This document shows positions 1 to 21,366 of a stretch of DNA of 23,357 nucleotides, piece after piece. Within the stretch, counting starts at the first letter, position 1. Every line of letters starts with the position of its first letter. The translations under genes and the position numbers were made by a program. The notes beneath the pieces are model-generated. The model ran no database searches. It saw only the letters and a list, made by a program, of their open reading frames with translations, and had not been told where the DNA came from. Origin of the DNA: a virus; the IMG/VR virus record IMGVR_UViG_3300005664_000094, positions 1 through 23,357 of that record. One strand, given 5' to 3'.

Positions 1-1555
1 TCTTTTCAAAGTCTTCTTTCATCGTCTTCTTCCTCATATCACAATATTCTGTAAGAAATCTACTTACAAATTCACCATATTCATCTCTGTAACTATTTTG
101 ACCAAAATTATTAATATAACCATTAATAATAGTAGTTAAATCATAAGTAATTTCATCAGTTAAGATTTGTTTTTGATTAACTTCAGTAAATTTCAATATA
201 GCACTACAAATAAATAACCAACTACTTAATTTTGTAAAATTAAGAGTAGGAGTATGCAATCTAAATTCAACTGTTCTTTTTCTTGTAAATACAAAAGGTA
301 CTAAATTTATCCAAAAATATCTGGAATGTATATTCCATTTTTGTGTTTGTCCTTTAGGATGCAAGAATGAATTTATATTATAAGTTTCATCTGTATGACT
401 TACTGTATTATCTGATAAAAATGAATATAATCTATCAAAATCAACTTTTACATTTTTCTTATATTGTGTTTTACTAGTATTAAGATATAATTCTCTATTA
501 CCAGTTCCTAAATCATGTAATTTAGCACAATAATTCTTTGTAAAGTTTCTCTGATAATTTTCAGGCTTGGTCTTATACATAGGAAATAATGTAAATACTT
601 CATTTTGTATATTACGTGAAAGTTTATATAAAGCTAAACAAAATTCTTCAGATATATTTTTAACACCTGATATGTGTATGTGTACAGAGCATTTTTCATT
701 AAATTCGCATCTTTTATCTACTTCAGCAGCTAGTAATCTAAGGGTTTCAAGCCCTTTTTCACCAGTTAAAGGTATAGTAGTATATTCATAAGGTTCAACA
801 CCTCTTTCATCTCTTAAACTACCATCCTTTAATGGTACTACACCTAGAGGACCTATTAAGTTCTTAGGAATAGTACCATTACATGTTTCTATCTCAAATC
901 CAAAAGTATAGTTATCTAATAACTTTGCAGCATCAGTACATCTTCCAGTAGGCTGAATCAGATTCTTATGTTTATTATACTGTTGTATAATTTCCATGTA
1001 TGTATTATTAGATTCATCAGCATTATAATTGATACTTGTTCTATCATATTTAAACACTGCTTTTTGTCCAAGTTTCATTAAATGGGATGATGGGAGAGAT
1101 TTTTTATTAATCCATACTCCATCTTTTAATGATTCTACGTAACCTAATTTCTCTGCAATTTCTGCACTAATACAAATAGTGGAAGCAGATAATCTTTCTT
1201 GTGGATTTTCAGTTAAATAAACATTGTTAAAAGGATTAAGATGAAAATACCCAAATTGTCCTTGTTCATTATATATACCTTTTACAAGATTTTCATCTTC
1301 TTCAAGAATATTAATTAATTCCCAAGTTTGTGATTCTACATTAAATCCTATTTTACCATTATTCCACCTGTGCCACTTCATACTTCCATCTGAATGTCTT
1401 ACTCTAAAACAAGTTACTCCAGGAAGATAATATTTATTATCTGCTTTTATATATCTTGTTTCTTCACGTGGATATTTTACTATACTACCATCAAGCATCT
1501 CAACATCTACTTGATCTCCTTTTGTTAATTTAATCATTTCTTTCTTTTTCGTCAT
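1..1555 (-). CDS. Amidoligase (glutamine-synthetase-like fold), C-terminus cut by window edge
   Basis: The frame is open from the ATG at 1555 to the window edge, giving 518 codons without a stop. It has the three hallmark segments of the Amidoligase_2 family: FGFEIET at residues 218-224, SVHIHIS at 290-296 and VEFRLH at 429-434. Known members are predicted ATP-dependent ligases that join a carboxylate to an amine. These acidic and histidine residues are expected to bind metal and nucleotide. About 215 residues precede the catalytic domain. They are rich in aromatics and Gly-Asn turns, look beta-rich, and match nothing I recognise. The start lies 2 bases after the stop of the class II amidotransferase gene, so the two are probably co-translated. 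An alternative ATG lies six codons downstream. The neighbouring ATP-grasp, amidotransferase and cyclotransferase-like genes support an amide-ligation pathway. Substrate unknown. Confidence 0.87.
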   Translation of the reverse strand, partial: MTKKKEMIKLTKGDQVDVEMLDGSIVKYPREETRYIKADNKYYLPGVTCFRVRHSDGSMKWHRWNNGKIGFNVESQTWELINILEEDENLVKGIYNEQGQFGYFHLNPFNNVYLTENPQERLSASTICISAEIAEKLGYVESLKDGVWINKKSLPSSHLMKLGQKAVFKYDRTSINYNADESNNTYMEIIQQYNKHKNLIQPTGRCTDAAKLLDNYTFGFEIETCNGTIPKNLIGPLGVVPLKDGSLRDERGVEPYEYTTIPLTGEKGLETLRLLAAEVDKRCEFNEKCSVHIHISGVKNISEEFCLALYKLSRNIQNEVFTLFPMYKTKPENYQRNFTKNYCAKLHDLGTGNRELYLNTSKTQYKKNVKVDFDRLYSFLSDNTVSHTDETYNINSFLHPKGQTQKWNIHSRYFWINLVPFVFTRKRTVEFRLHTPTLNFTKLSSWLFICSAILKFTEVNQKQILTDEITYDLTTIINGYINNFGQNSYRDEYGEFVSRFLTEYCDMRKKTMKEDFEK

Positions 1556-1557
1556 AT

Positions 1558-3480
1558 TTATGAAAATAAAAGTCCCCGTTTTGGAGTATTATCATTATTA
1601 GTTTCATTTTTTGAAGTTATATTAGTTAATCTCCTCTTTACGTGTCTTACAGTCTTATTAATTGCTATGATGATATTTTCTAATTCAGTATCACTCATTT
1701 TTTCAGTAAATTGTGTACCAATATTTTCACCATCTTTTACAAAATCTAAAGCTGCATCAAGAAATTCTTCTTTTTCAACTTCATTTACTTCTTTAGTTAA
1801 TTTTTCAGGTAAAATAATTGGTGTAACTGCATTGTCTGCAAATGTTGCAAATAATTGTGTATTTTTTACTTTTTCATGTTTTGTTAAAGCTGTAGTACGA
1901 CCATTATTTTTAATTGTATCTGCTGCGTTTTGAGTAATACTTGTATTATCATAATCTGAACCTAAGAAATTACCATTAGAAAATACATATCCTCTATCAT
2001 AATCAAACAATGGATAAAATACACCTGTAGCATATACAGCACAATTATTTTGATAATCCCATTCTTTAGTTGCACCCCTATCATCATTAAAGTTAGATAC
2101 AAAACCATAAGTATACTTTACTATTTCTTGTAAAAAGAAACTAGTTTTATAATTATCTTCTTTAAGTATGATTTCTTCAGGACTAGTTTTAAGTCTTTTT
2201 TGTAAAGCATCAGCACATGTTTTATCCCTCATTATGAAACCCATATAGAAATAATATGTTTCAAGAGATGATTCATCTACTTTTATTTTACCACCTTTTT
2301 CATAACCTAAATAATCTAATTGTAGAGAAACAACTTCTTTTGGTTTATTACCACCAATCATATGCCCATTTTGAAAATATCTTCCTTTATGAAAATATAC
2401 TTTACTCTTCTTTTTAGAAGGATCAAATGTAAATGGTTCGTATTCAATCATACAAAACTTCTTTTCATTCAATTGCACACCACCAAATTTCTTAGCAGCT
2501 TTTAGTATTTTTTTGTAATTAGGATAATTTCTAAAAGTCTTTTCTATCGTAGTAAGAGATAAAGACCTAATGGGAACAGAACTGTTATTCCTATTATAAG
2601 AACTAGCAGTAGTATAACGGGAAGCAGACACCCCAGATGATCTAGTATCCACACATTGCGAGTTGTTCCTCTGTCCACTCCCCTGTGAAAAATTTTGTGA
2701 TTGAACAATTTCTCTGTTTACAAGAGTAATTTTAGCTTTTTTACCAGCTATAAATTTATAAACTTTGTTAGTTTCAAGATTGAATGTATTAGTTTCATTA
2801 CCACCAATTGCATATAATGCTTCTCTTATTGAAGAAAAATATAATGATTTTAATGGTTCATCTTCCCAAACAAACATTGGACGTTCTTCTTCCACAGCTG
2901 AAGTACTATATTCTTTTGATGCACCTTTATACACATATAATACATTAGGTTCATCCAAATAAAACCATGTTAATACAGCTTTACCTTTATATTCTTCTAA
3001 TACCTTATAAGGATGCTTTTCTTTTCTATTTTTAGCTAGAATAGAGAGCATTAGTTGAGAATCTACAGGATATGTCTCTGTCATATCATAAGCCTTCTTA
3101 AGCTCCTCACAATTACTAATAGAGCCATTATGTGCACCTATAAGTACTACATTATTATCAGGATCTGTAATTTCAAAAGGATGGGCATGATCTGGATTAC
3201 TTTTTTCACTCCATGATGTAGAAGCTTTTCTATTATGTACTATAATATTATAATTCTCATCATTCTCATTTACAACTAAATTCTTCTTTTCAATAAAGTT
3301 AGAAAAATTAGCTTGTTTAATTGAAGGATTTGGTTTAAAATCATCAACACCTTTACTTACAACATTATTTATTACAATACCACAGGCATCCGAACCTCTG
3401 CTAACATTATATAATCCTAATATTTTAATTTTATCTATATTTGCTGGCTTAACGCCTATATACATGCTTATTCCACACAT
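1558..3480 (-). CDS. Class II glutamine amidotransferase with long C-terminal extension
   Basis: The protein begins MCGIS, so Met removal would expose Cys2 as the N-terminal nucleophile of an Ntn-type glutaminase. Other family landmarks follow in order: HNRKAS at 82-87 (like the HTR segment of PurF and GlmS), AHNGSISN at 116-123, and VDSQ at 139-142. The glutaminase domain fills about the first 240 of 640 residues and should release ammonia from glutamine or hydrolyse a related amide. At about 268-312 comes a Ser/Asn/Arg/Gln-rich, probably disordered linker. About 330 residues follow that I cannot assign, and I see no synthetase or isomerase motif of PurF, GlmS or AsnB. It may feed ammonia to, or trim products of, the adjacent amidoligase and ATP-grasp enzymes. 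The ATG is fixed by the need for Cys2. Confidence 0.9.
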   Translation of the reverse strand: MCGISMYIGVKPANIDKIKILGLYNVSRGSDACGIVINNVVSKGVDDFKPNPSIKQANFSNFIEKKNLVVNENDENYNIIVHNRKASTSWSEKSNPDHAHPFEITDPDNNVVLIGAHNGSISNCEELKKAYDMTETYPVDSQLMLSILAKNRKEKHPYKVLEEYKGKAVLTWFYLDEPNVLYVYKGASKEYSTSAVEEERPMFVWEDEPLKSLYFSSIREALYAIGGNETNTFNLETNKVYKFIAGKKAKITLVNREIVQSQNFSQGSGQRNNSQCVDTRSSGVSASRYTTASSYNRNNSSVPIRSLSLTTIEKTFRNYPNYKKILKAAKKFGGVQLNEKKFCMIEYEPFTFDPSKKKSKVYFHKGRYFQNGHMIGGNKPKEVVSLQLDYLGYEKGGKIKVDESSLETYYFYMGFIMRDKTCADALQKRLKTSPEEIILKEDNYKTSFFLQEIVKYTYGFVSNFNDDRGATKEWDYQNNCAVYATGVFYPLFDYDRGYVFSNGNFLGSDYDNTSITQNAADTIKNNGRTTALTKHEKVKNTQLFATFADNAVTPIILPEKLTKEVNEVEKEEFLDAALDFVKDGENIGTQFTEKMSDTELENIIIAINKTVRHVKRRLTNITSKNETNNDNTPKRGLLFS

Positions 3481-3482
3481 TA

Positions 3483-4337
3483 TTACTTGCTTATTTGTTT
3501 ATTAATTAATCTTTTAATTTCTTCAAAATACTTTTGACTACCTACTTCTCCTAATGCAGGAGCACTATTTGTTTCTAAAACTATGAATTCACATGTTTTT
3601 CTCTTATTACCACTTGAATCTAAAGAACTTGCTACTCTTACATCTATAGCACCAATACTTAATCCAACTGCTTTTAGAGCTTTTACACTATGATCTATAA
3701 TTTCATTCCAATTTGTAGGTTTATCAAAAGAACTATTATCTTCTCCTACCCAAACACAGTTTGTACTATTAAAGAACCATCTATCTTTAGCATCTTCTTT
3801 ACGAAGTTTTCTCCATGCTAAGAAACATCCATCTTCTGTAACATGAAGTCTATATTCTCTAGCTCCATTAAAATACTCTTCAAAATAATATCCACTTGTT
3901 GATTTAGACAAGAAAGATTTCAAATCTTCTACTTTATCCAACTTCTTCATTCCTTCACCACCTTGTCCTACAATTTTCTTTGCTAAAATTGGAAATTTAA
4001 GTGATTTAAAATCAGGAAGTTCTTTTACTTCATAATATTTAGCATGTTTTAATCCATCTTTTACACTATCAAATGCTTCATGCATTAATAGTTTATTACG
4101 ACTAATTTCAACTGATTCAACTGTATTTAATTCAATTACTTTTGCACCAGGTCTAACTATTTCACTAGTATCTGTAAGTGAACCCATACGTATTATACTT
4201 CTTACAGGAAACATTAATTCTCTCAATCTTTCTTTAAGACCATCTGTAGAATAATTCTTAGTTCTTAATCTAGGTCTAAATTTAATTGGAACTCCTGATG
4301 AAACAATCTTCTTCTTTATTAATTTCTTTGTTAACAT
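3483..4337 (-). CDS. ATP-grasp ligase
   Basis: This 284-aa protein has ATP-grasp features. A lysine and glycine-rich loop, AKKIVGQGGEGM, lies at 119-130. A strand and turn, YFEEYFNGAREYRLHV, lies at 151-166. The metal-binding end is IGAIDVRV at 228-235 and VLETNSAP at 253-260, where D232, E255 and N257 are the likely Mg-ATP ligands. ATP-grasp enzymes activate a carboxylate as an acyl phosphate and couple it to an amine or thiol. The N-terminal part contains RSIIRMGSLTD, similar to the N-terminal region of phage ATP-grasp proteins. It lies two bases before the class II amidotransferase, and its start overlaps the upstream cyclotransferase-like gene by 56 bases in another frame. The overlap is long for this genome, so a later start is possible. 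Substrate unknown. Confidence 0.85.
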   Translation of the reverse strand: MLTKKLIKKKIVSSGVPIKFRPRLRTKNYSTDGLKERLRELMFPVRSIIRMGSLTDTSEIVRPGAKVIELNTVESVEISRNKLLMHEAFDSVKDGLKHAKYYEVKELPDFKSLKFPILAKKIVGQGGEGMKKLDKVEDLKSFLSKSTSGYYFEEYFNGAREYRLHVTEDGCFLAWRKLRKEDAKDRWFFNSTNCVWVGEDNSSFDKPTNWNEIIDHSVKALKAVGLSIGAIDVRVASSLDSSGNKRKTCEFIVLETNSAPALGEVGSQKYFEEIKRLINKQISK

Positions 4338-4755
4338 TATTTATTGGTTTTCTATTTAAAATATATCTAATCCAGTCTCCTCCTTTTACTTTCAAACTAT
4401 CAGCTACTCCATTCTTATATACAAATAAGAATGCTGGTACAGTTTTTTGTAACCAATTTGATTTTTGAAGTAATCTTACCATCATACAATCATTTCTTAA
4501 TGCTTCTGTATATATATCTGCCCATGTTTCATCATCACATTCCATTAAGTCACAAGTTACACCATTATCTTCTTCAAAGTTAATAGTAGGTCTTATTACA
4601 GGTATCTTATTATTTATACAATATAAGCTATAGTCTTCTATTCTAACTTTTTCTATAAAGTTAAAATAACCTACATCCTTATAAAATTCAGCAGCACCTA
4701 AACCATCTCTTAGACCACCATATGCTAAAATATATTTTTTTTCAGATTTAATCAT
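4282..4755 (-). CDS. Gamma-glutamylcyclotransferase-like (GGCT/AIG2 fold) protein
   Basis: The 157-aa product starts with a strand leading into AYGGLRDG at residues 11-18, which matches the YGSLR-G nucleotide-independent substrate loop of the gamma-glutamylcyclotransferase/AIG2 superfamily. Later segments, VRIEDYSLYCI and a hydrophobic AFLFVYK, also fit the fold. Known members release 5-oxoproline from gamma-glutamyl amines or peptides. A catalytic glutamate is expected in the middle; E84 is a candidate but my alignment there is uncertain. It precedes the ATP-grasp gene with a 56-base overlap and follows the 264-aa unknown by one base (TAAAATG). In this setting it could remove or edit gamma-glutamyl groups made by the ligases; that is inference. 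The C-terminal tail, about 20 residues, is polar and may be dispensable. Confidence 0.72.
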   Translation of the reverse strand: MIKSEKKYILAYGGLRDGLGAAEFYKDVGYFNFIEKVRIEDYSLYCINNKIPVIRPTINFEEDNGVTCDLMECDDETWADIYTEALRNDCMMVRLLQKSNWLQKTVPAFLFVYKNGVADSLKVKGGDWIRYILNRKPINNVNKEINKEEDCFIRSSN

Positions 4756-4756
4756 T

Positions 4757-5551
4757 TTATAAATTTTTCCAAGCTTCTACTTTCATACCAAATTCATCAT
4801 TTTCATCACCATTTAAGATGCCATTTTTTGCATCTGAACTGTAATAAAACATTCTTTTCTTAGTAGAATGACAATATGAACTTCTAAAACCTTTTAATTT
4901 ACTTTCATTTTCAGCAAATGTATATAATATATCTTTTACTTCTTTTAATGTACATTTAGGATAGTAATATTTAGCAATTTTATATACATCACCTAAACTT
5001 CTTCTACATCCTGCTTCTGTATCAACATCTTTATTATCAACAAGAATTGTATCTCTTTCTTCATTCCATTTTGTAAAGAAATTCTTAAGAAAATCTTCAA
5101 GACTCTCTTTTCTTTTCTTCAATAATCCTTGTACTCTAATTGCTTTTATTTCTTTATTAATTTTTTCTTCTAATTGTGTTAGTTTGCTTACTTGTGCTTT
5201 TGTTGCTGCTACTCTTGGCATAATACCTGTTTTCTTTGTTAAAAATCTTCTTACTTGCTTTTCTACGTCAATATTATCATTCGGATTAACCTTCATTACA
5301 ACTTCATCTTCACCAATTGTATGTATAATCTCATTACTTCTAAATAATACAAAATTTTCTGTGATAACTTTTCCTCTAAATATAACTTCATAACCATCAC
5401 TTTCTATTTCTAATAATTCATACGAATGTTTATTTTGTGCTAAAAATTTATCACCTTTCTTATAACTAGTATTTCTTATTTTATAAGATTTATTATGTTC
5501 ATCATATCTTGCTTTTGTAGGAAAATTTCCATTTCTAAAATATCTACTCAT
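4757..5551 (-). CDS. Unknown phage protein, paralogue of the split pair at 14341-15091
   Basis: I do not recognise a named family for this 264-aa protein. Residues 28-80 look like a small beta domain (YKKGDKF to EIIHTIG). Residues 118-165 are charged and helical, probably coiled. The C-terminal third carries DVYKIAKYYYPKCTLKEV (188-205) and SSYCHSTKKRMFYYSS (224-239). Two consecutive small genes just upstream of the DNA polymerase carry the same elements: IHTIG in the 111-aa protein, and DLYRLTTYYFPKTKLEDI plus a similar S-x-C-x2-T-x4-F segment in the next. The single gene here therefore looks like the fused form of that pair. It sits three bases after the uracil-DNA glycosylase gene. A role in DNA metabolism is guessed from location only. 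Confidence 0.78.
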   Translation of the reverse strand: MSRYFRNGNFPTKARYDEHNKSYKIRNTSYKKGDKFLAQNKHSYELLEIESDGYEVIFRGKVITENFVLFRSNEIIHTIGEDEVVMKVNPNDNIDVEKQVRRFLTKKTGIMPRVAATKAQVSKLTQLEEKINKEIKAIRVQGLLKKRKESLEDFLKNFFTKWNEERDTILVDNKDVDTEAGCRRSLGDVYKIAKYYYPKCTLKEVKDILYTFAENESKLKGFRSSYCHSTKKRMFYYSSDAKNGILNGDENDEFGMKVEAWKNL

Positions 5552-12075: not shown

Positions 12076-12444
12076 TTAAAAACCAGACCATCTAATATGA
12101 TCTGCTCTAGTTATATTATTAACAATTTCATAGTTTCTAATAGATTTACGTAGATTATTTATCTCTGTTTCTTTAGCTATATTTAATCCAGAACTACGTC
12201 CTGCTACTTCTACTAAGTTATTTAAATCACCATACATACCAGCTAACTTTGGATGTTCATCTTTCAATTTATTCCAATGATGTGATGTTTTAGGTAATAT
12301 GTCTTTAGGTGAAACAGGATTATTCTCTATTTCATCTATCACTTCATTAATTGTCATAGCAGACAATTCTTCTTTTATTGGTGGTGGCTTAGTTACTTCT
12401 ACTTTCTTTTGTAAAGTAGGTTTATCTGTTATATTATTTTTCAT
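12076..12444 (-). CDS. Small unknown protein (122 aa) between polymerase and loader genes
   Basis: No family recognised. The first 30 residues are polar and proline-containing (VEVTKPPPIKEE) and likely flexible. The rest is helical and charged, with TINEVIDEIENNP, HHWNKLKDEHPKLAGMYGDL and a C-terminal helix ending in a basic ADHIRWSGF. Its ATG overlaps the stop of the DNA polymerase as TAATG, and its stop is one base from the next ATG, so it is embedded in the replication operon. A bridging or accessory role at the replisome is a guess from position. Confidence 0.75.
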   Translation of the reverse strand: MKNNITDKPTLQKKVEVTKPPPIKEELSAMTINEVIDEIENNPVSPKDILPKTSHHWNKLKDEHPKLAGMYGDLNNLVEVAGRSSGLNIAKETEINNLRKSIRNYEIVNNITRADHIRWSGF

Positions 12445-14348
12445 TAAAATAAACTCATTTGTTTTGTTTCTATTACTTCTAGTATTTTCTTACATTCCAT
12501 AATATAAAAATTGTAATTTATATTATAATCACTCCATTCTTTCTCAATAAAATCATTGAATACTGTCACTTCAAATCCTTTATTGATAATTTCACTAGTT
12601 CCCTTCTTATATTGTTTTATAAATGTATGACCTGGAGTTGATATATAATATCTTACATTCTTTTGTTGTTTCTCAACAACTTCTTTATCTACATCTAAAT
12701 GATGTGTTTCTCCATAACTATCTTTACTAAACTTTTGTCTTCCACAAAAATCATAAATATTCCTATGATTCTTGACTGTTTCCTCAACAGGTATTCCATT
12801 GACAAAGTAGTTTGATATAGCTAAAGGTACTATTTTAAAGGAATTATCCTTATGAACCTCTTTGTCAATTTCAAAAGCACCTTTATATTTGACTTTACCT
12901 TTTGTAGATATAGCCATATAGTTATTAACGTCTCTAATTATCATTTTAGAATACTCTACATATTCTAAATTAAGATTAGTATTTTCTTCCCATCCTTTAC
13001 AAATATCATAATACATTGGAAGTAAATCTTTTCTAATTTTAACTGTTATACCATCAGTATTGATTTGTAATACTTTAAGTCCAATTATTTCATCAACAAG
13101 AGCTTCAGCTAACATAGCTAACATTAATTGACCATTAATTGTAGTTTTTAATGTATATAATGGATCATATAAGAAACTATGTATATCATTAGATTTACCA
13201 TATACACTATTTAAGCTTAATTTAAATCCATCAGAAAGAGTCATATTTCCTGCCTTTTTAGCTACTATTCTCTGATTTAGTATATCTTCATACACTTCAC
13301 AGAATTTAGGTCCTAAATGGGCTGGAAATAGCTTATTTTGCACTGCTATATTCGGATATAAAGAATTTACATCTAGGTCGAGTATAATATAATCATCATC
13401 TGACTCATATACTCCTGGTTTTATACAACCATGTATTCCCCCTGTTCCAAAATCATATTTAAAACCCTTATAAATAACACTATTAGCTATTGCACCTTTA
13501 GTATTAGTTACTTCTTTACTTTTAAGATTATCTAATAGACTATTAAATTCTTTTGATTGAAATTTAATATAATCAAAGATACAATCTTTAATTTTAATAT
13601 TAGGTCTGTAGGTTCTTTGTTCCTTAATTTCCCAAGGATCTTGTCCTGTAGCTTCAGAAAACAGTTTTAATACTAATTCTTCACCTATCTTACTATCTGG
13701 ATAATTTATGCAAGGGAGATTATATTTATTAATCAAATCCTTACGTAAATTAATTTTAGCTTCACTTAACTTATAGAACTTAAATGTAGCAAGAACATCA
13801 TTTAAGTTATATTTTAATATATCCTCAATTTCATCTTCTGTAATATCATTTCTTGTATGTTCTATAGGCATTTCCATTACATTTGGAAAACACATAGATA
13901 TTTCAAGTGATTTTAATGAAGTAGCTCTAGCTTTATTATTAAAATGCCATAATTTAAATAAATCTAATTGTTGTATTAAAACATCTTTTCTTTTGATTGC
14001 TACAATTTTAACAAAATTCTCTTGATTTTGAGAATCAATAATTTCTTGTGCTTTCTCATATATATCATCAATTATATCTTGTATAGATATAACTCCATAA
14101 TAATTTAATTGAGATTGCCAAAATGTAGCTTTTTGTAGTATTAAATGTATAATAGGATAATCAAAGTTAACATTGTTAAATCCAATTCCTCCTTTACATT
14201 GTTTTAAATGTGTTATTAATTCTTCTAGTTCAAATTTATCATTATGAATAACAAATTGAACTATTTCTTCAGTATCTACATTTATTGCGCTATAAGTAAA
14301 TGCTGAAGCAAGGGTTTCTATATCGTATACATATAAATTTCTATTCAG
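12444..14348 (-). CDS. Family B DNA polymerase with 3'-5' exonuclease, probable CTG start
   Basis: From CTG at 14348 the protein is 634 aa. Exonuclease motif I is VYDIET (7-12, D9 and E11), ExoII is GFNNVNFDYP (D63), and ExoIII is YNLND (Y180 to D184). The polymerase part has TGGIHG, motif A DLDVNSLYP (from D324), motif B KLSLNSVYGK and motif C INTDG (N430-T-D432-G). So it is a proofreading DNA polymerase. The spacing between motifs A and B is short, so there is no TPR2-type insertion of protein-primed enzymes. The first ATG of this frame is at residue 152, inside the exonuclease domain, and would destroy ExoI and ExoII. Between the preceding in-frame stop and ExoI the only plausible start is CTG, eight codons before D9. 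It overlaps the upstream gene by 8 bases. Confidence 0.9.
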   Translation of the reverse strand: MNRNLYVYDIETLASAFTYSAINVDTEEIVQFVIHNDKFELEELITHLKQCKGGIGFNNVNFDYPIIHLILQKATFWQSQLNYYGVISIQDIIDDIYEKAQEIIDSQNQENFVKIVAIKRKDVLIQQLDLFKLWHFNNKARATSLKSLEISMCFPNVMEMPIEHTRNDITEDEIEDILKYNLNDVLATFKFYKLSEAKINLRKDLINKYNLPCINYPDSKIGEELVLKLFSEATGQDPWEIKEQRTYRPNIKIKDCIFDYIKFQSKEFNSLLDNLKSKEVTNTKGAIANSVIYKGFKYDFGTGGIHGCIKPGVYESDDDYIILDLDVNSLYPNIAVQNKLFPAHLGPKFCEVYEDILNQRIVAKKAGNMTLSDGFKLSLNSVYGKSNDIHSFLYDPLYTLKTTINGQLMLAMLAEALVDEIIGLKVLQINTDGITVKIRKDLLPMYYDICKGWEENTNLNLEYVEYSKMIIRDVNNYMAISTKGKVKYKGAFEIDKEVHKDNSFKIVPLAISNYFVNGIPVEETVKNHRNIYDFCGRQKFSKDSYGETHHLDVDKEVVEKQQKNVRYYISTPGHTFIKQYKKGTSEIINKGFEVTVFNDFIEKEWSDYNINYNFYIMECKKILEVIETKQMSLF

Positions 14349-14754
14349 ATATTTTTATTTTCTTTCTATTTTTCAATCTAATAGATATATCAGATTTTCT
14401 ACCTCCATTAGATGTAGGCCAAAAAACCGTTTGATTCGTTGTAGAACATTGACTAGCTCCTATACTGTTTTTACTTCTGATATATTTAATTATATCTTCA
14501 AGTTTTGTTTTAGGAAAGTAATAAGTAGTAAGTCTATATAAATCAGCAGCTCCTCTCATTCTACCTTGTGGACATTGATACCCACCAGTTTCTCTTATAG
14601 TAGATTCTCCAGTTCTTACATAGTTTGTAACCTTACCAATTGCTCTATCTATTACTTCTTCAAAAGATTTAGGTTTGAATGTCTTCTCAAATGTTTTATT
14701 AAATCTAATTTTAGACATTTGATCTAAATCTTCTTGTATTTCTTTTAATTTCAT
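14341..14754 (-). CDS. Unknown protein, C-terminal half of the split paralogue pair
   Basis: I take the ATG at 14754 (137 aa), because it follows the upstream stop by one base as TAATATG. An ATG seven codons earlier (14775) would overlap that gene. The N-terminal 60 residues are helical and charged. Then come RGAADLYRLTTYYFPKTKL and ASQCSTTNQTVFWPTS, which align with the C-terminal third of the 264-aa protein at 4757-5551. The end is very basic (GGRKSDISIRLKNRKKIK), suggesting nucleic-acid binding. The TAG stop overlaps the probable CTG start of DNA polymerase. Function unknown; position argues for a polymerase-linked role. Confidence 0.77.
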   Translation of the reverse strand: MKLKEIQEDLDQMSKIRFNKTFEKTFKPKSFEEVIDRAIGKVTNYVRTGESTIRETGGYQCPQGRMRGAADLYRLTTYYFPKTKLEDIIKYIRSKNSIGASQCSTTNQTVFWPTSNGGRKSDISIRLKNRKKIKISE

Positions 14755-14755
14755 A

Positions 14756-15091
14756 TTAAAATATTTGTTCTCCATCTACTTCTAAGAATGAATCTGGTCT
14801 AATATCAGAAGGAAATGTATCTGTTTCCTCTTCTATATTAGATGTTAATACACCTATTGTATGGATATAGCGTTTATTAAATGTTTTTTTAAATCCTACA
14901 GGATATACATTACTTTCTAAAATCTCACAAAAGAATCTCTTTGTACCATATACAATTTGTTTCTCTTTAGGCATTTCATCAAGTATAAATGTTAATCCTT
15001 CTGCTTTTTCTTCTAATATAAGAGCTTTACCAAAAGGCTTTGTTTCCTCTTGGTAATTCTCATATATATCAATTTCTTGACCTGCTTGCAT
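14756..15091 (-). CDS. Unknown protein (111 aa), N-terminal half of the split paralogue pair
   Basis: No known family. It appears to be a small beta domain (GKALILEEKAEGLTFILDE, TKRFFCEILES, then KRYIHTIGVLT). The segment ending in IHTIG matches the same position in the 264-aa protein at 4757-5551, whose C-terminal part matches the next gene. It is the first gene after the only real intergenic gap in the window, so it probably opens the replication transcript. The last 30 residues are acidic. The ATG at 15091 is the only one available. Confidence 0.75.
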   Translation of the reverse strand: MQAGQEIDIYENYQEETKPFGKALILEEKAEGLTFILDEMPKEKQIVYGTKRFFCEILESNVYPVGFKKTFNKRYIHTIGVLTSNIEEETDTFPSDIRPDSFLEVDGEQIF

Positions 15092-17964: not shown

Positions 17965-18825
17965 TCATACTTTCTCTTCTTTTTCAACTTTCTTTGATGT
18001 ACTTTCTGTAACTACTTCAGGTAATTCTATACCATATTCTTTACATAAGTTACGAGCCATGTCTCTATTATTAGTATCTATTACCATAGGAAGAAGTTCA
18101 TATAAATCCTTATTTAATTCTCTTCCTTCGTTAATAAAATCCTGTATTTTAAGTACTTGGTTATAAACCCATGCAGTATAAACTTCTGAAGTAAGCCAAT
18201 AGTTAGATAAAGCTCTACATTCTACACCAAAATTCTTAAATCTGAAACTTCCTGCCTTACCATATAATTGTCTCCTTTCTGTATCAGGATCAAGCAATAT
18301 ACTTGGCATTGTAAGGAATAAATCAAATAATCTAACTATTTGTTCACTAACTTCTTCTGTTGGATTATCATAACCTATAGCTACGTGTCCTCCACATACT
18401 CTTAGATTATCTATTGCATCTGGTGGAGTGTTTTGTTCACCCTTCCATACATTATAGTCTGGATCACAACCAAAAGTGTTAGCTTGTTTTGTATTTAAGT
18501 GATTAGCATTAAATCTTGCACTTGCCTGAATAACAAGATCCAGTTCTTCTGGAAGATGTTCTCTCATGTATTTTAAAGATTGTTTATGATATGAAATCCA
18601 TTCATCTTCATTTGTTGCAGGTGGGATATTATATTCAAGTGCTACACAATCTACTTGCCACATAAAACCTTTAGGAAGATTATCCATTTGTAATGGTCTC
18701 TTCTTAGTTCCTTTTATGAATCCTACAGCAGAGTGAAATTCATTATTTACATTATTCCAGAGAAATACTTCTGGATCTGAACCTACAAGTAGGTTACTAA
18801 TTATTGGTTTATTTTGTTTTTTCAT
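17965..18825 (-). CDS. PhiEco32-type COOH-NH2 ligase (amidoligase type 2)
   Basis: The 286-aa protein shows the signature segments of the phage phiEco32-like COOH-NH2 ligase family: GSDPEVFL (15-22), VDCVALEYNIPPA (58-70), GCDPDYNVW (119-127), CGGHVAIGY (144-152), RRQLYGKAGSFR (184-195) and VECRALSNYWL (201-211). The glutamine-synthetase-like fold predicts ATP-dependent amide bond formation through an acyl phosphate. The His of the GGHxxxG segment and the acids of the DPE and LEY segments should bind metal and ATP. The last 30 residues are charged. It shares its start region with the end of the 371-aa orphan (17-base overlap) and is followed by nrdJ. Two amidotransferase-fold genes lie upstream, so it belongs to the second amide-chemistry cluster. 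Substrate unknown. Confidence 0.92.
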   Translation of the reverse strand: MKKQNKPIISNLLVGSDPEVFLWNNVNNEFHSAVGFIKGTKKRPLQMDNLPKGFMWQVDCVALEYNIPPATNEDEWISYHKQSLKYMREHLPEELDLVIQASARFNANHLNTKQANTFGCDPDYNVWKGEQNTPPDAIDNLRVCGGHVAIGYDNPTEEVSEQIVRLFDLFLTMPSILLDPDTERRQLYGKAGSFRFKNFGVECRALSNYWLTSEVYTAWVYNQVLKIQDFINEGRELNKDLYELLPMVIDTNNRDMARNLCKEYGIELPEVVTESTSKKVEKEEKV

Positions 18826-19924
18826 TTATTTCAAATATTAAAAAATAAGCGGGATAATATCTTGTATCTTTACCATAAGTTTCATCATTTAATGATTTAC
18901 CTTTCAAATATATTCCATTACCTTCGTATTTTTCATATGAAGTTAATTTTTCTATATTAGTATAATTAGCTACACAATAAGTATTTGACTTAATTTCAGG
19001 TAATTTATTTCCAGGATTATTAGAATTAAAATATTCTAACTTAGTAATTTCTGTTTCAAATATTTCTTCTAAAAGTTTCTTTACTATTTCAAGACTTTTT
19101 GTATGGTCTTGAGTAGTAGTTTGTTTAATAGGAGTACTTGAATTAGGATCATAATGTAAACATTTTGTAGATGGATAAGTATTAAAGAAATCACTTATAA
19201 CACCTAAACAAGCATTAAAATTATTCTGACTATAATACTTTTGAACTAATTTAAAATATAAATCTTTTATGAAATATTGTGATAAATTAAATCTTGAATC
19301 ATTATTATTTACAAAAGCATAAAATCCAAAATAATAATTAGCATATCTTATATTTAATTGTCCTTTTTCACATTTATCTAAATCTTTCTTTAGCTCTTCA
19401 GCTGTAGTAGGAAAAAATGGATTACCAGGATGTAATAAAGTAAATGTAGCATTATGATTTTTACTATTATAATGTGCTAATAATAAAGCTTGTAGTGGAT
19501 CTATATCTTTATCTGTTTCAAGTATTCTATATGTTTCTTCAATAATATTATGTGTTGGATACCATAAGTATCTAATTAATATCATTGTTATATACATTTT
19601 AAAACCACTTTTTACTTCAGACTTGTCTATAGTAAAGAAGTCACCATCATATTCAAACACTAAATCAAAATTAGATTTTAAAAATGTTAACCATTTTTCA
19701 ATTTCTTCTTTTGTATAATGTTTAATTCTATGATCAGCAGGTCTAAATTTTACATATTTAGCTGTATTAGCATAATAAGCATCTTTTAAAAACTGCATAC
19801 ATCCTTTAGTTTGGTCTTGTACTTCTCCACTTGTAGGATATAAAATACCTTGTGTATTTAAACACCATTGTGCATGTTCACTATTCTTGTACTTGTTAAT
19901 CGGATTTCTAAATCTTAATTCCAT
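18809..19924 (-). CDS. Unknown protein (371 aa) inside the amide-ligase cluster
   Basis: I recognise no family or motif. The N-terminal part contains LRFRNPINKYKN and HAQWCLNTQGI. The middle is helical and aromatic-rich (FKMYITMILIRYLWYP, QALLLAHYN, YYFGFYAFVNN). The C-terminal third has mixed strands (NTYCVANYTNIEKL, YYPAYFLIFEIN). No signal peptide or clear transmembrane segment is seen. It is linked on both sides: its start overlaps the end of an amidotransferase gene by 17 bases, and its end overlaps the COOH-NH2 ligase start by 17 bases. It may therefore be a substrate carrier, partner or further enzyme of that pathway. Confidence 0.78.
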   Translation of the reverse strand: MELRFRNPINKYKNSEHAQWCLNTQGILYPTSGEVQDQTKGCMQFLKDAYYANTAKYVKFRPADHRIKHYTKEEIEKWLTFLKSNFDLVFEYDGDFFTIDKSEVKSGFKMYITMILIRYLWYPTHNIIEETYRILETDKDIDPLQALLLAHYNSKNHNATFTLLHPGNPFFPTTAEELKKDLDKCEKGQLNIRYANYYFGFYAFVNNNDSRFNLSQYFIKDLYFKLVQKYYSQNNFNACLGVISDFFNTYPSTKCLHYDPNSSTPIKQTTTQDHTKSLEIVKKLLEEIFETEITKLEYFNSNNPGNKLPEIKSNTYCVANYTNIEKLTSYEKYEGNGIYLKGKSLNDETYGKDTRYYPAYFLIFEINEKTK

Positions 19925-20618
19925 TTAATAAATTAATTATTGTTTTGTTAGAGAATTTATCATTTATCTCTTCAGGATGCCATTGTACCCCTACTACATT
20001 AAGTCTTTTGTGTTTAAGAGCTTCAACATATTCTCCATCTTCATCTACATAAAGAATTTCTAAATCTGATCCTACATTATTCCATCTTACAGCTTGATGA
20101 TGTAAAGAATTAACTTTTACTTCTCTATTTTTTGCTACTTCTTTTAATTTCAAAGTATCAATTTCAGGATAATATAATAAATTTCCTGCCTCATCACGTA
20201 CAGGTTGAGATATTTTATGTGTTAATTCCCATCTAGGTGAAGAAGAAGGATGATACATATGCTGTGTAATTACACTACCATACTTTACAGCTATTTGTTG
20301 CATACCTAAGCATATACCAAATATTGGAACTTGAGCATCAATATATTGTTGTAAATTCACTTCAAAGAAATATTCCTTATATGCATCAGATTCACTATTC
20401 ATAAAACTTGGAGCTGATCCATATCTATATGATGGTGTATCTTTACCTCCAGGTAACACTACTAAATCTAATCCTTGTCTTATACCTTCTTGTGGTGTTA
20501 ATATTTCTACTACACCAAATTTAGAAAAGTATTCAAGATATGATTTAGTTACTCCAAATGAACTTTCACCTATACTCCAACCTACAATTCCTATGTGTTT
20601 TGTTTTATCTTGCGACAT
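19908..20618 (-). CDS. Class I glutamine amidotransferase-like protein B
   Basis: The protein has the class I amidotransferase/peptidase C26 fold. An oxyanion-region LPGGKDTPSY (55-64) precedes the nucleophile elbow FGICLGMQQI with Cys103. VNSLHHQAV (169-177) is typical of gamma-glutamyl-GABA hydrolase-like members. VQWHPEE (211-217) supplies His214 and Glu216. The fold cleaves gamma-glutamyl amides or glutamine. No synthetase domain is attached, so it acts alone or with a partner. I choose the ATG at 20618 (236 aa); a TTG at 20633 would add five residues and overlap the preceding gene. It is a distant paralogue of the next upstream gene and overlaps the 371-aa orphan by 17 bases. Confidence 0.88.
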   Translation of the reverse strand: MSQDKTKHIGIVGWSIGESSFGVTKSYLEYFSKFGVVEILTPQEGIRQGLDLVVLPGGKDTPSYRYGSAPSFMNSESDAYKEYFFEVNLQQYIDAQVPIFGICLGMQQIAVKYGSVITQHMYHPSSSPRWELTHKISQPVRDEAGNLLYYPEIDTLKLKEVAKNREVKVNSLHHQAVRWNNVGSDLEILYVDEDGEYVEALKHKRLNVVGVQWHPEEINDKFSNKTIINLLNGIKI

Positions 20619-20622
20619 TTTA

Positions 20623-21366
20623 TTAATTTTCAATGTTATTAAATACTTGTATCTCTTCTTGCTCTTTTTTTAATTTAAAATAATCATTATTTTCAAATGT
20701 ATTATTTATCACTTCATTTAGATAGTTTAATGTTTTTTCATAACTATATTTATTATAACCCATCATTTCTGGGTGAAATTGTATAGCTAAACCTCTAATT
20801 CCTGGAAACCAAACAATTTCTGGTTCAATTACATTATCATTAATTTTTGCAAAATCAGGAAAAACATTCTGTTTATCATTTCCATCTAAATAACTCTTAC
20901 TTAATCCTTCTGTCCATCCTAATACTTTATACTTGTCTTTTGGCATATTCCAAGGATATAGCATTTGGTGATGTATAGAATTAGTAACAAGTGTTAAACC
21001 ATCGTGTGTAGTAATATCATGATTACCATGATGATTTCTTACATCTTGTATAAGTTTACCACCTATTTCATTTTGCATAGCACACATCAATTGAGCACCA
21101 CGACAAATTCCAATGATATATTTACCATCTTTTACAGCTCTTTTATAATAAGCCATATGACGCTCATCAGTATCTTCCCAAAAACTAGTTCTATGACCAG
21201 CTTTTTCATTATAAATAGCAGGATTTATATCTGCACCACCAGGAAATATTACTATATTAGCATCATCCCATTCAGTTTCTCTACTATTTTCTATCCAGTA
21301 TCCATCATCATGACCTACTGAAAATGTCTTAAATTTACTTTCTTTTACTTTGTTTTTGTATTTCAT
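20623..21366 (-). CDS. Class I glutamine amidotransferase-like protein A
   Basis: This 247-aa protein carries the complete triad of the class I amidotransferase/peptidase C26 fold: FPGGADINPAIY (41-52), the elbow IIGICRGAQL with Cys88, TNSIHHQML (128-136), and IQFHPEM with His198 and Glu200. The paired His in the SIHHQ segment is usual in gamma-glutamyl hydrolases of the PuuD type. It probably hydrolyses a gamma-glutamyl bond or supplies ammonia. The C-terminal 30 residues are charged and helical. Four bases separate its stop from the ATG of protein B, so the two are translated together. Why a phage keeps two such enzymes is not clear; different substrates or a heterodimer are possible. Confidence 0.88.
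   Translation of the reverse strand: MKYKNKVKESKFKTFSVGHDDGYWIENSRETEWDDANIVIFPGGADINPAIYNEKAGHRTSFWEDTDERHMAYYKRAVKDGKYIIGICRGAQLMCAMQNEIGGKLIQDVRNHHGNHDITTHDGLTLVTNSIHHQMLYPWNMPKDKYKVLGWTEGLSKSYLDGNDKQNVFPDFAKINDNVIEPEIVWFPGIRGLAIQFHPEMMGYNKYSYEKTLNYLNEVINNTFENNDYFKLKKEQEEIQVFNNIEN

Follow-up and report, generated by a model that had tools for sequence, protein, structure and literature searches.

The minus-strand genes at positions 17965-21366 of the IMG/VR virus record IMGVR_UViG_3300005664_000094 are very likely one half (the right arm) of a known phage cassette of amide-forming ligases, the remainder of which (the left arm) lies at positions 2-4755 of the same DNA. The whole stretch of 23,357 nucleotides, referred to here as the window, is a 23-kilobase (kb) fragment of a gut-type crAss-like phage, as judged by its DnaB, whose matches are in Crassvirales and in Leptolyngbya phage Lbo-JY46. 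An initial annotation, made from the letters alone, had treated the right arm as a second amide-chemistry cluster containing an orphan protein. In related phages both arms occur together and are held as a single contiguous cassette, which indicates one cassette that is split in the window phage. The cassette, its gene list and the idea that it combines synthesis with degradation have already been published, and nothing is new there. The modest additions made here are the split around replication genes, repeated in a second contig, and a probable home for the 'orphan'.

The right arm consists of four overlapping open reading frames (ORFs), found on the minus strand exactly where the initial annotation had placed them, with overlaps of 11, 17 and 17 bp:

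20623..21366, minus strand: class I glutamine amidotransferase (peptidase C26) copy b, 247 residues; PF07722 at 55 bits, phrog_7218 at 2e-27, GICRGAQ and HPE intact
19908..20633, minus strand: class I amidotransferase (peptidase C26) copy a, 241 residues; PF07722 at 91.5 bits, GICLGMQ and HPE intact
18809..19924, minus strand: 371-residue protein, probable divergent member of a family termed X below; homologue in fragment L002, profile match, C42 and R118
17965..18825, minus strand: phiEco32-type COOH-NH2 ligase (type 2), 286 residues; PF14395, phrog_3815, invariant residues

The prediction of a phiEco32-type COOH-NH2 ligase is borne out for the 286-residue protein by its sequence matches, which reach 28.2 bits against PF14395 (cut-off 25) and E 3e-66 against phrog_3815 ('COOH.NH2 ligase'), the latter over almost the whole length. 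An alignment of 17 homologues has 18 invariant columns, all kept in the window protein, and the invariant motifs GxDPE, R/H and R..YG..R..GxExR are its putative active-site residues. Two class I amidotransferase-fold proteins with full catalytic triads had also been claimed, and both copies do score above the Peptidase_C26 cut-off of 20.5 bits and retain a complete Cys-His-Glu triad, formed by the GIC(L/R)G nucleophile and H-P-E. The triad is kept in 14 of 15 class I homologues, so the general loss of triads that would have spoken against the annotation is not seen. The description of the pair as paralogous is correct in a broad sense, the copies being 23% identical, but not in the sense of a recent duplication, as each has a separate counterpart in locus L004 and in Lbo-JY46. 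Copy b is 39-44% identical to the class I copies of cr108_1 and L004, and copy a is 36% identical to a second class I copy of Lbo-JY46; sequence comparison thus places them in two old sub-lineages. The PDB entries nearest to copy a are Lin1909, GMP-synthase amidotransferase subunits and PuuD. Lbo-JY46 also has a third class I amidotransferase (L006:18763-19524), in which the catalytic Cys and His have been lost (GIGRGAS, NSDPE).

The expectation that both arms would be found together across phages was confirmed, and independent presence or absence was not seen. Twenty-eight whole records were searched for six cassette families. The type-2 ligase was present in 23, of which 22 were informative, the other being a 13-kb fragment (G001/L002) counted as uninformative. 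Amidoligase_2, ATP-grasp and class II amidotransferase were all present in every one of the 22, and none of the six families was found in the five crAss-like controls (cr128_1, cr106_1, cr116_1, cr126_1 and PhiCrAssBcn21). Scanning viral contigs for the ligase signature gave 39 further contigs of at least 40 kb, with class II amidotransferase in 39, ATP-grasp in 38 and Amidoligase_2 in 36. Adding these 39 contigs to the 22 informative phage or IMG/VR records gives 61 records with the ligase, for which the counts are 61, 60 and 58 respectively. The class I amidotransferase was less constant (13 of the 22 informative records and 32 of the 39 contigs), and across the 28 whole records C26 was found in 13 and the cyclotransferase in 16. 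The four core enzymes travel together, while the class I amidotransferase, the cyclotransferase and family X are accessories. Four records were found via other genes (three through ATP-grasp, one through class I amidotransferase), and all four carry the type-2 ligase. Since sampling was mainly ligase-first, the claim is restricted to one direction: where the type-2 ligase is present, the other three core families are present.

Physical linkage points the same way. Of the 83 distinct ligase loci whose downstream sequence runs to 3 kb or more, 77 have Amidoligase_2 no further than 3.2 kb downstream of the ligase. The arms are contiguous in phi14:2, cr108_1, Lbo-JY46, L004, G021 and PaP3, in LUZ24/PaP3-like and Zobellviridae phages, and in UFV-P2 (PMC3890496). 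This usual contiguity, together with the co-occurrence, supports the suggestion that the two arms belong to one pathway. The type-2 ligase was found in 310 phage records, and its signature appeared in only eight stretches in contigs of 84,980 species, mostly short contigs of metagenome-assembled genomes, which indicates that it is phage-restricted.

The left arm contributes the following genes:

4282..4755, minus strand: gamma-glutamyl cyclotransferase-like protein, 157 residues; GGACT at 3e-4, phrog_2520 at 2e-6
3483..4337, minus strand: ATP-grasp ligase, 284 residues; phrog_2599 at 7e-24, 38% identical to Cellulophaga phage phi14:2
1558..3480, minus strand: class II amidotransferase, 640 residues, with N-terminal MCG and a long C-terminal part; GATase_6 at 1e-5, phrog_14519 at 7e-11
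2..1555, minus strand: Amidoligase_2, at least 518 residues, running off the window; PF12224 above cut-off, phrog_2443 at 3e-22

The ATP-grasp, class II amidotransferase and cyclotransferase matches fall just below the Pfam cut-offs and are significant in PHROGs. Amidoligase_2 has invariant E, H and R residues over 15 homologues. These matches agree with the count given at the outset: the ligases number three (Amidoligase_2, ATP-grasp and type 2), as do the amidotransferase-fold proteins, one being of class II and two of class I, so that two folds are represented.

All of the cassette genes are on the minus strand and they are non-contiguous in the window, flanking genes for primase, helicase, polymerase, dUTPase and ribonucleotide reductase (RNR). 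The minus-strand order is class I amidotransferase b, class I amidotransferase a, 371-residue protein, type-2 ligase, B12-type RNR, dUTPase, polymerase (assigned via homology to L002 and G006), DnaB, Sak4-like ATPase, primase, GNAT, uracil-DNA glycosylase (UDG), cyclotransferase, ATP-grasp, class II amidotransferase and Amidoligase_2. The two arms thus flank replication and nucleotide genes, as had been noted, and are 13.2 kb apart. The same split with the same flanks recurs in contig G006, and a different split is seen in G012. A single origin of the split in the window and G006 was considered and is unsupported, because the ligase tree groups the window with G021, in which the cassette is contiguous (98/95), and apart from G006. 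Either repeated origins of the split or an exchange of the ligase may explain this. A frameshift was suspected in the window polymerase gene (12444-14345, minus strand) and ruled out, the frame being open to an apparent CTG start; the L002 homologue uses TTG, and start-codon lists without CTG shorten the polymerase to 483 residues.

The 371-residue protein had been called an orphan, and it matches no Pfam or PHROG family and has no close relatives in phage records or viral contigs other than one clear homologue, at the same position in L002 (37% identity). It is nevertheless probably not an orphan. Many cassettes have an unannotated protein of about 300 residues just upstream of the ligase or of the class I amidotransferase, and iterated profiles unite these proteins into one family, X. 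A profile of X built without the window and L002 proteins retrieves the 371-residue protein at E 3e-5 to 3e-4 (16-19.6 bits; HMMER filters off; match confined to residues 110-165), and the best reversed or shuffled control in the same profile rounds reaches about 0.03-0.07. At an inclusion threshold of 1e-4 the profile misses the protein. The Cys and Arg that are invariant in X align with C42 and R118. Members of X occur in 24 of 61 ligase loci with sufficient upstream sequence, always upstream and on the same strand, 0.9-5.3 kb from the ligase; the 371-residue protein is immediately upstream of it. Taken together, these sequence comparisons make it probable that the 371-residue protein belongs, as a divergent member, to a cassette-linked family that had not been described.

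An example of an X member is L092:3061-3942, and two PHROGs that carry no functional annotation, phrog_34254 and phrog_27195, match members of the family. Pairwise hhalign comparison of the 371-residue protein with single neighbours gave nothing significant, and a 30-member profile was needed. The AlphaFold model of the 371-residue protein is poor (predicted local distance difference test, pLDDT, of 50), which makes a search with its fold meaningless. One X member gave a moderate model (pLDDT 67, predicted template modelling score 0.75), for which Foldseek found no match in the PDB. With VIA-align the top hit to this model was PafA, a carboxylate-amine ligase (Z 4.8, root-mean-square deviation 3.9 over 157 residues), which was too weak and was not used. 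Comparing the profile of X with that of either ligase yielded no match. It is conceivable, if rather unlikely, that X, including the 371-residue protein, is an overlooked component of the cassette, either a Cys/Arg-dependent enzyme or a carrier on which the ligases act. The same reading, held with equally little confidence, would make the cassette a defined multi-step pathway that is split around replication genes in this lineage.

Glutamine-synthetase-like ligases and ATP-grasp enzymes couple an ATP-activated carboxylate to an amine. Gamma-glutamyl amides are cleaved by members of the C26 family, among them PuuD and gamma-glutamyl hydrolase, and GGCT/GGACT enzymes act on gamma-glutamyl amines, from which they free 5-oxoproline. 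A set of three ligases and two kinds of gamma-glutamyl remover fits a process in which gamma-glutamyl or isopeptide links are built and trimmed step by step, and gamma-glutamyl or other amide chemistry is the probable activity predicted for the cassette. Early in infection, the three ATP-dependent ligases would join carboxylates to amines or amino acids, probably through gamma-glutamyl or isopeptide links. The class II amidotransferase could supply ammonia from glutamine or act as a matching amidase. Cleavage or cyclisation of gamma-glutamyl groups would fall to the C26 proteins (PuuD/gamma-glutamyl-hydrolase-like) and the cyclotransferase, and would serve for deprotection or for clearing host material. 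The likeliest target would be the peptidoglycan peptide or its precursors, and the benefit an altered cell wall or superinfection exclusion. We lean slightly towards this explanation as a whole, in which amide links are built early and peptidoglycan or its precursors are the likeliest target; peptidoglycan itself, as the predicted target of the cassette, is put forward tentatively.

Iyer and colleagues reportedly described the cassette in 2009 and are said to have proposed peptidoglycan as its target. A 'Peptidoglycan Modification Cassette' making three linkages and including degradation genes, that is, both synthesis and trimming, has since been proposed (PMC5498523). Superinfection exclusion has also been proposed for the cassette (PMC10580990; PMC11253131).

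Several points weigh against this explanation. A search of the literature found no member of the cassette tested by biochemistry or genetics, and no experiment on the cassette itself beyond growth data for phage ZRK32; the peptidoglycan target in later papers is reportedly repeated from the 2009 study. The position of the cassette among replication genes would suit a nucleic-acid target equally well. The window is a fragment, and genes beyond its ends are unseen. The association of the core families was tested chiefly one way, and mycobacteriophage Marvin, which according to the literature has an amidoligase and an amidotransferase, lacks the type-2 ligase. Prophages with an amidoligase and a cyclotransferase have also been described with no mention of a type-2 ligase (PMC11253131, PMC11318856).

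Other products of the same chemistry have to be weighed. That the cassette serves a soluble gamma-glutamyl metabolite or nitrogen salvage, in the manner of PuuA/PuuD or of butirosin-like protection and deprotection, seems fairly unlikely. Polyamines or amino acids would then be converted to gamma-glutamyl amides by the ligases and set free again by C26 and the cyclotransferase. The match of C26 copy a to PuuD and the identity of PF06094 (GGACT) as the gamma-glutamylamine cyclotransferase family are in keeping with such a role, but no window ligase matches PF00120, the PuuA family, and neither C26 nor the cyclotransferase is indispensable across phages. A further hint of metabolite work comes from three distant phages, in which genes for nicotinate/nicotinamide phosphoribosyltransferase and phosphoribosyl pyrophosphate synthetase precede the cassette by a few kb (L006:6766-10975, L010:4991-7272 and L016:2731-5273). 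According to one study, growth with ammonium or nitrate was promoted by Phage-ZRK32, an effect that its authors credit to the cassette genes, but the growth data do not isolate the effect of those genes (PMC10945688).

Hypermodification of phage DNA, with the ligases attaching amines or amino acids to a carboxylated base in a CmoY-like manner, we regard as improbable. The neighbours of the cassette in the phages examined do include primase, polymerase, UDG and dUTPase genes, and ATP-dependent amide ligation to a DNA base by a phage has experimental precedent in CmoY with 5-carboxymethylcytosine (PMC12783734). CmoY, however, is an asparagine-synthetase homologue unrelated to these ligase families, no base-modifying methyltransferase or hydroxymethylase was found among the window proteins scanned, and the gamma-glutamyl hydrolase and cyclotransferase steps would have no obvious role. 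DNA of the cassette-bearing phage tf has, moreover, been cloned after digestion with RsaI, HpaI, EcoRV and SmaI (PMC3517423). An equally poor prospect is protein modification, whereby a RimK-like ATP-grasp and the other ligases would attach amino acids to proteins of the host (a ribosomal protein or RNA polymerase, for instance) during host takeover. The genes sit in the early region, and the ATP-grasp belongs to phrog_2599, named ribosomal protein S6 glutaminyl transferase, but a PHROG name is no function, and three ligases with gamma-glutamyl-removing enzymes point instead to a multi-step small-molecule or peptide product.

Among named systems, the RIO-1/phiEco32-type cassette is reportedly associated with the work of Hardies and colleagues (2013) and of Iyer and colleagues (2009). 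As found in RIO-1, phiEco32, LUZ24, PaP3, PA11, tf and CW02, it has the same two glutamine-synthetase-like amidoligase subtypes as the window (PMC5498523). The ATP-grasp, class II amidotransferase and cyclotransferase, and the location on one strand beside replication genes, are shared as well; in this cassette type, however, the arms are adjacent, whereas the ligase arm of the window is 13.2 kb from the rest. The class I amidotransferase, present twice in the window, is lacking in phiEco32, LUZ24 and PaP3.

The nearest genomic relatives, the crAss-like phi14:2, cr108_1 and G021, carry the same cassette beside primase and UDG, but contiguously and with 0, 1 and 2 class I amidotransferases respectively. 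The order in phi14:2 is primase, cyclotransferase, ATP-grasp, ligase, class II amidotransferase, Amidoligase_2 and UDG, and the contiguous cassette of L004 includes two class I amidotransferases. Lbo-JY46 resembles the window in having both class I sub-lineages, the cyclotransferase, both ligases, ATP-grasp and class II amidotransferase, and differs in that these form one operon, with the catalytically broken third class I copy, and in having NAD-salvage genes upstream. G006 (IMGVR_UViG_3300007960_000020) is like the window in its order of RNR, class I amidotransferase and ligase, then polymerase, helicase and primase, and in its second arm of cyclotransferase, ATP-grasp, class II amidotransferase and Amidoligase_2; it has one class I amidotransferase, and its ligase does not group with that of the window.

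The cassette is widespread, occurring in LUZ24, PaP3 and phiEco32 among others, and the fact that its members come almost all together or not at all, along with the conservation of family X, reduces the question to a single pathway that is open to testing in culturable phages. Its crAss-like members link it to an abundant order of gut phages.

Some minor observations were also made. Promoter-like sites in the window are at chance level (57 against 57.8), and a search for RNA families and tRNAs in it found none. The window proteins at 4757-5551 and 14341-14775 share a C-terminal domain of about 60 residues (28% identity, E 1e-6) that matches no Pfam family; L002:4645-5049 looks alike. In the close relative L002 (1294-3602) an HNH endonuclease ORF seemingly breaks up the RNR gene, in the way of an intron or intein. 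The last residues of this ORF, NGSCPIK, equal the C-terminus of the window reductase, and the L002 reductase looks to be of a different type from that of the window. Cassette genes are also present at about 301-307 kb of MT135025.1 (L172), Vibrio phage V07 (349 kb, Straboviridae, marked unverified), where they score much like those of 50-kb Vibrio phages, and this assembly may be chimeric.

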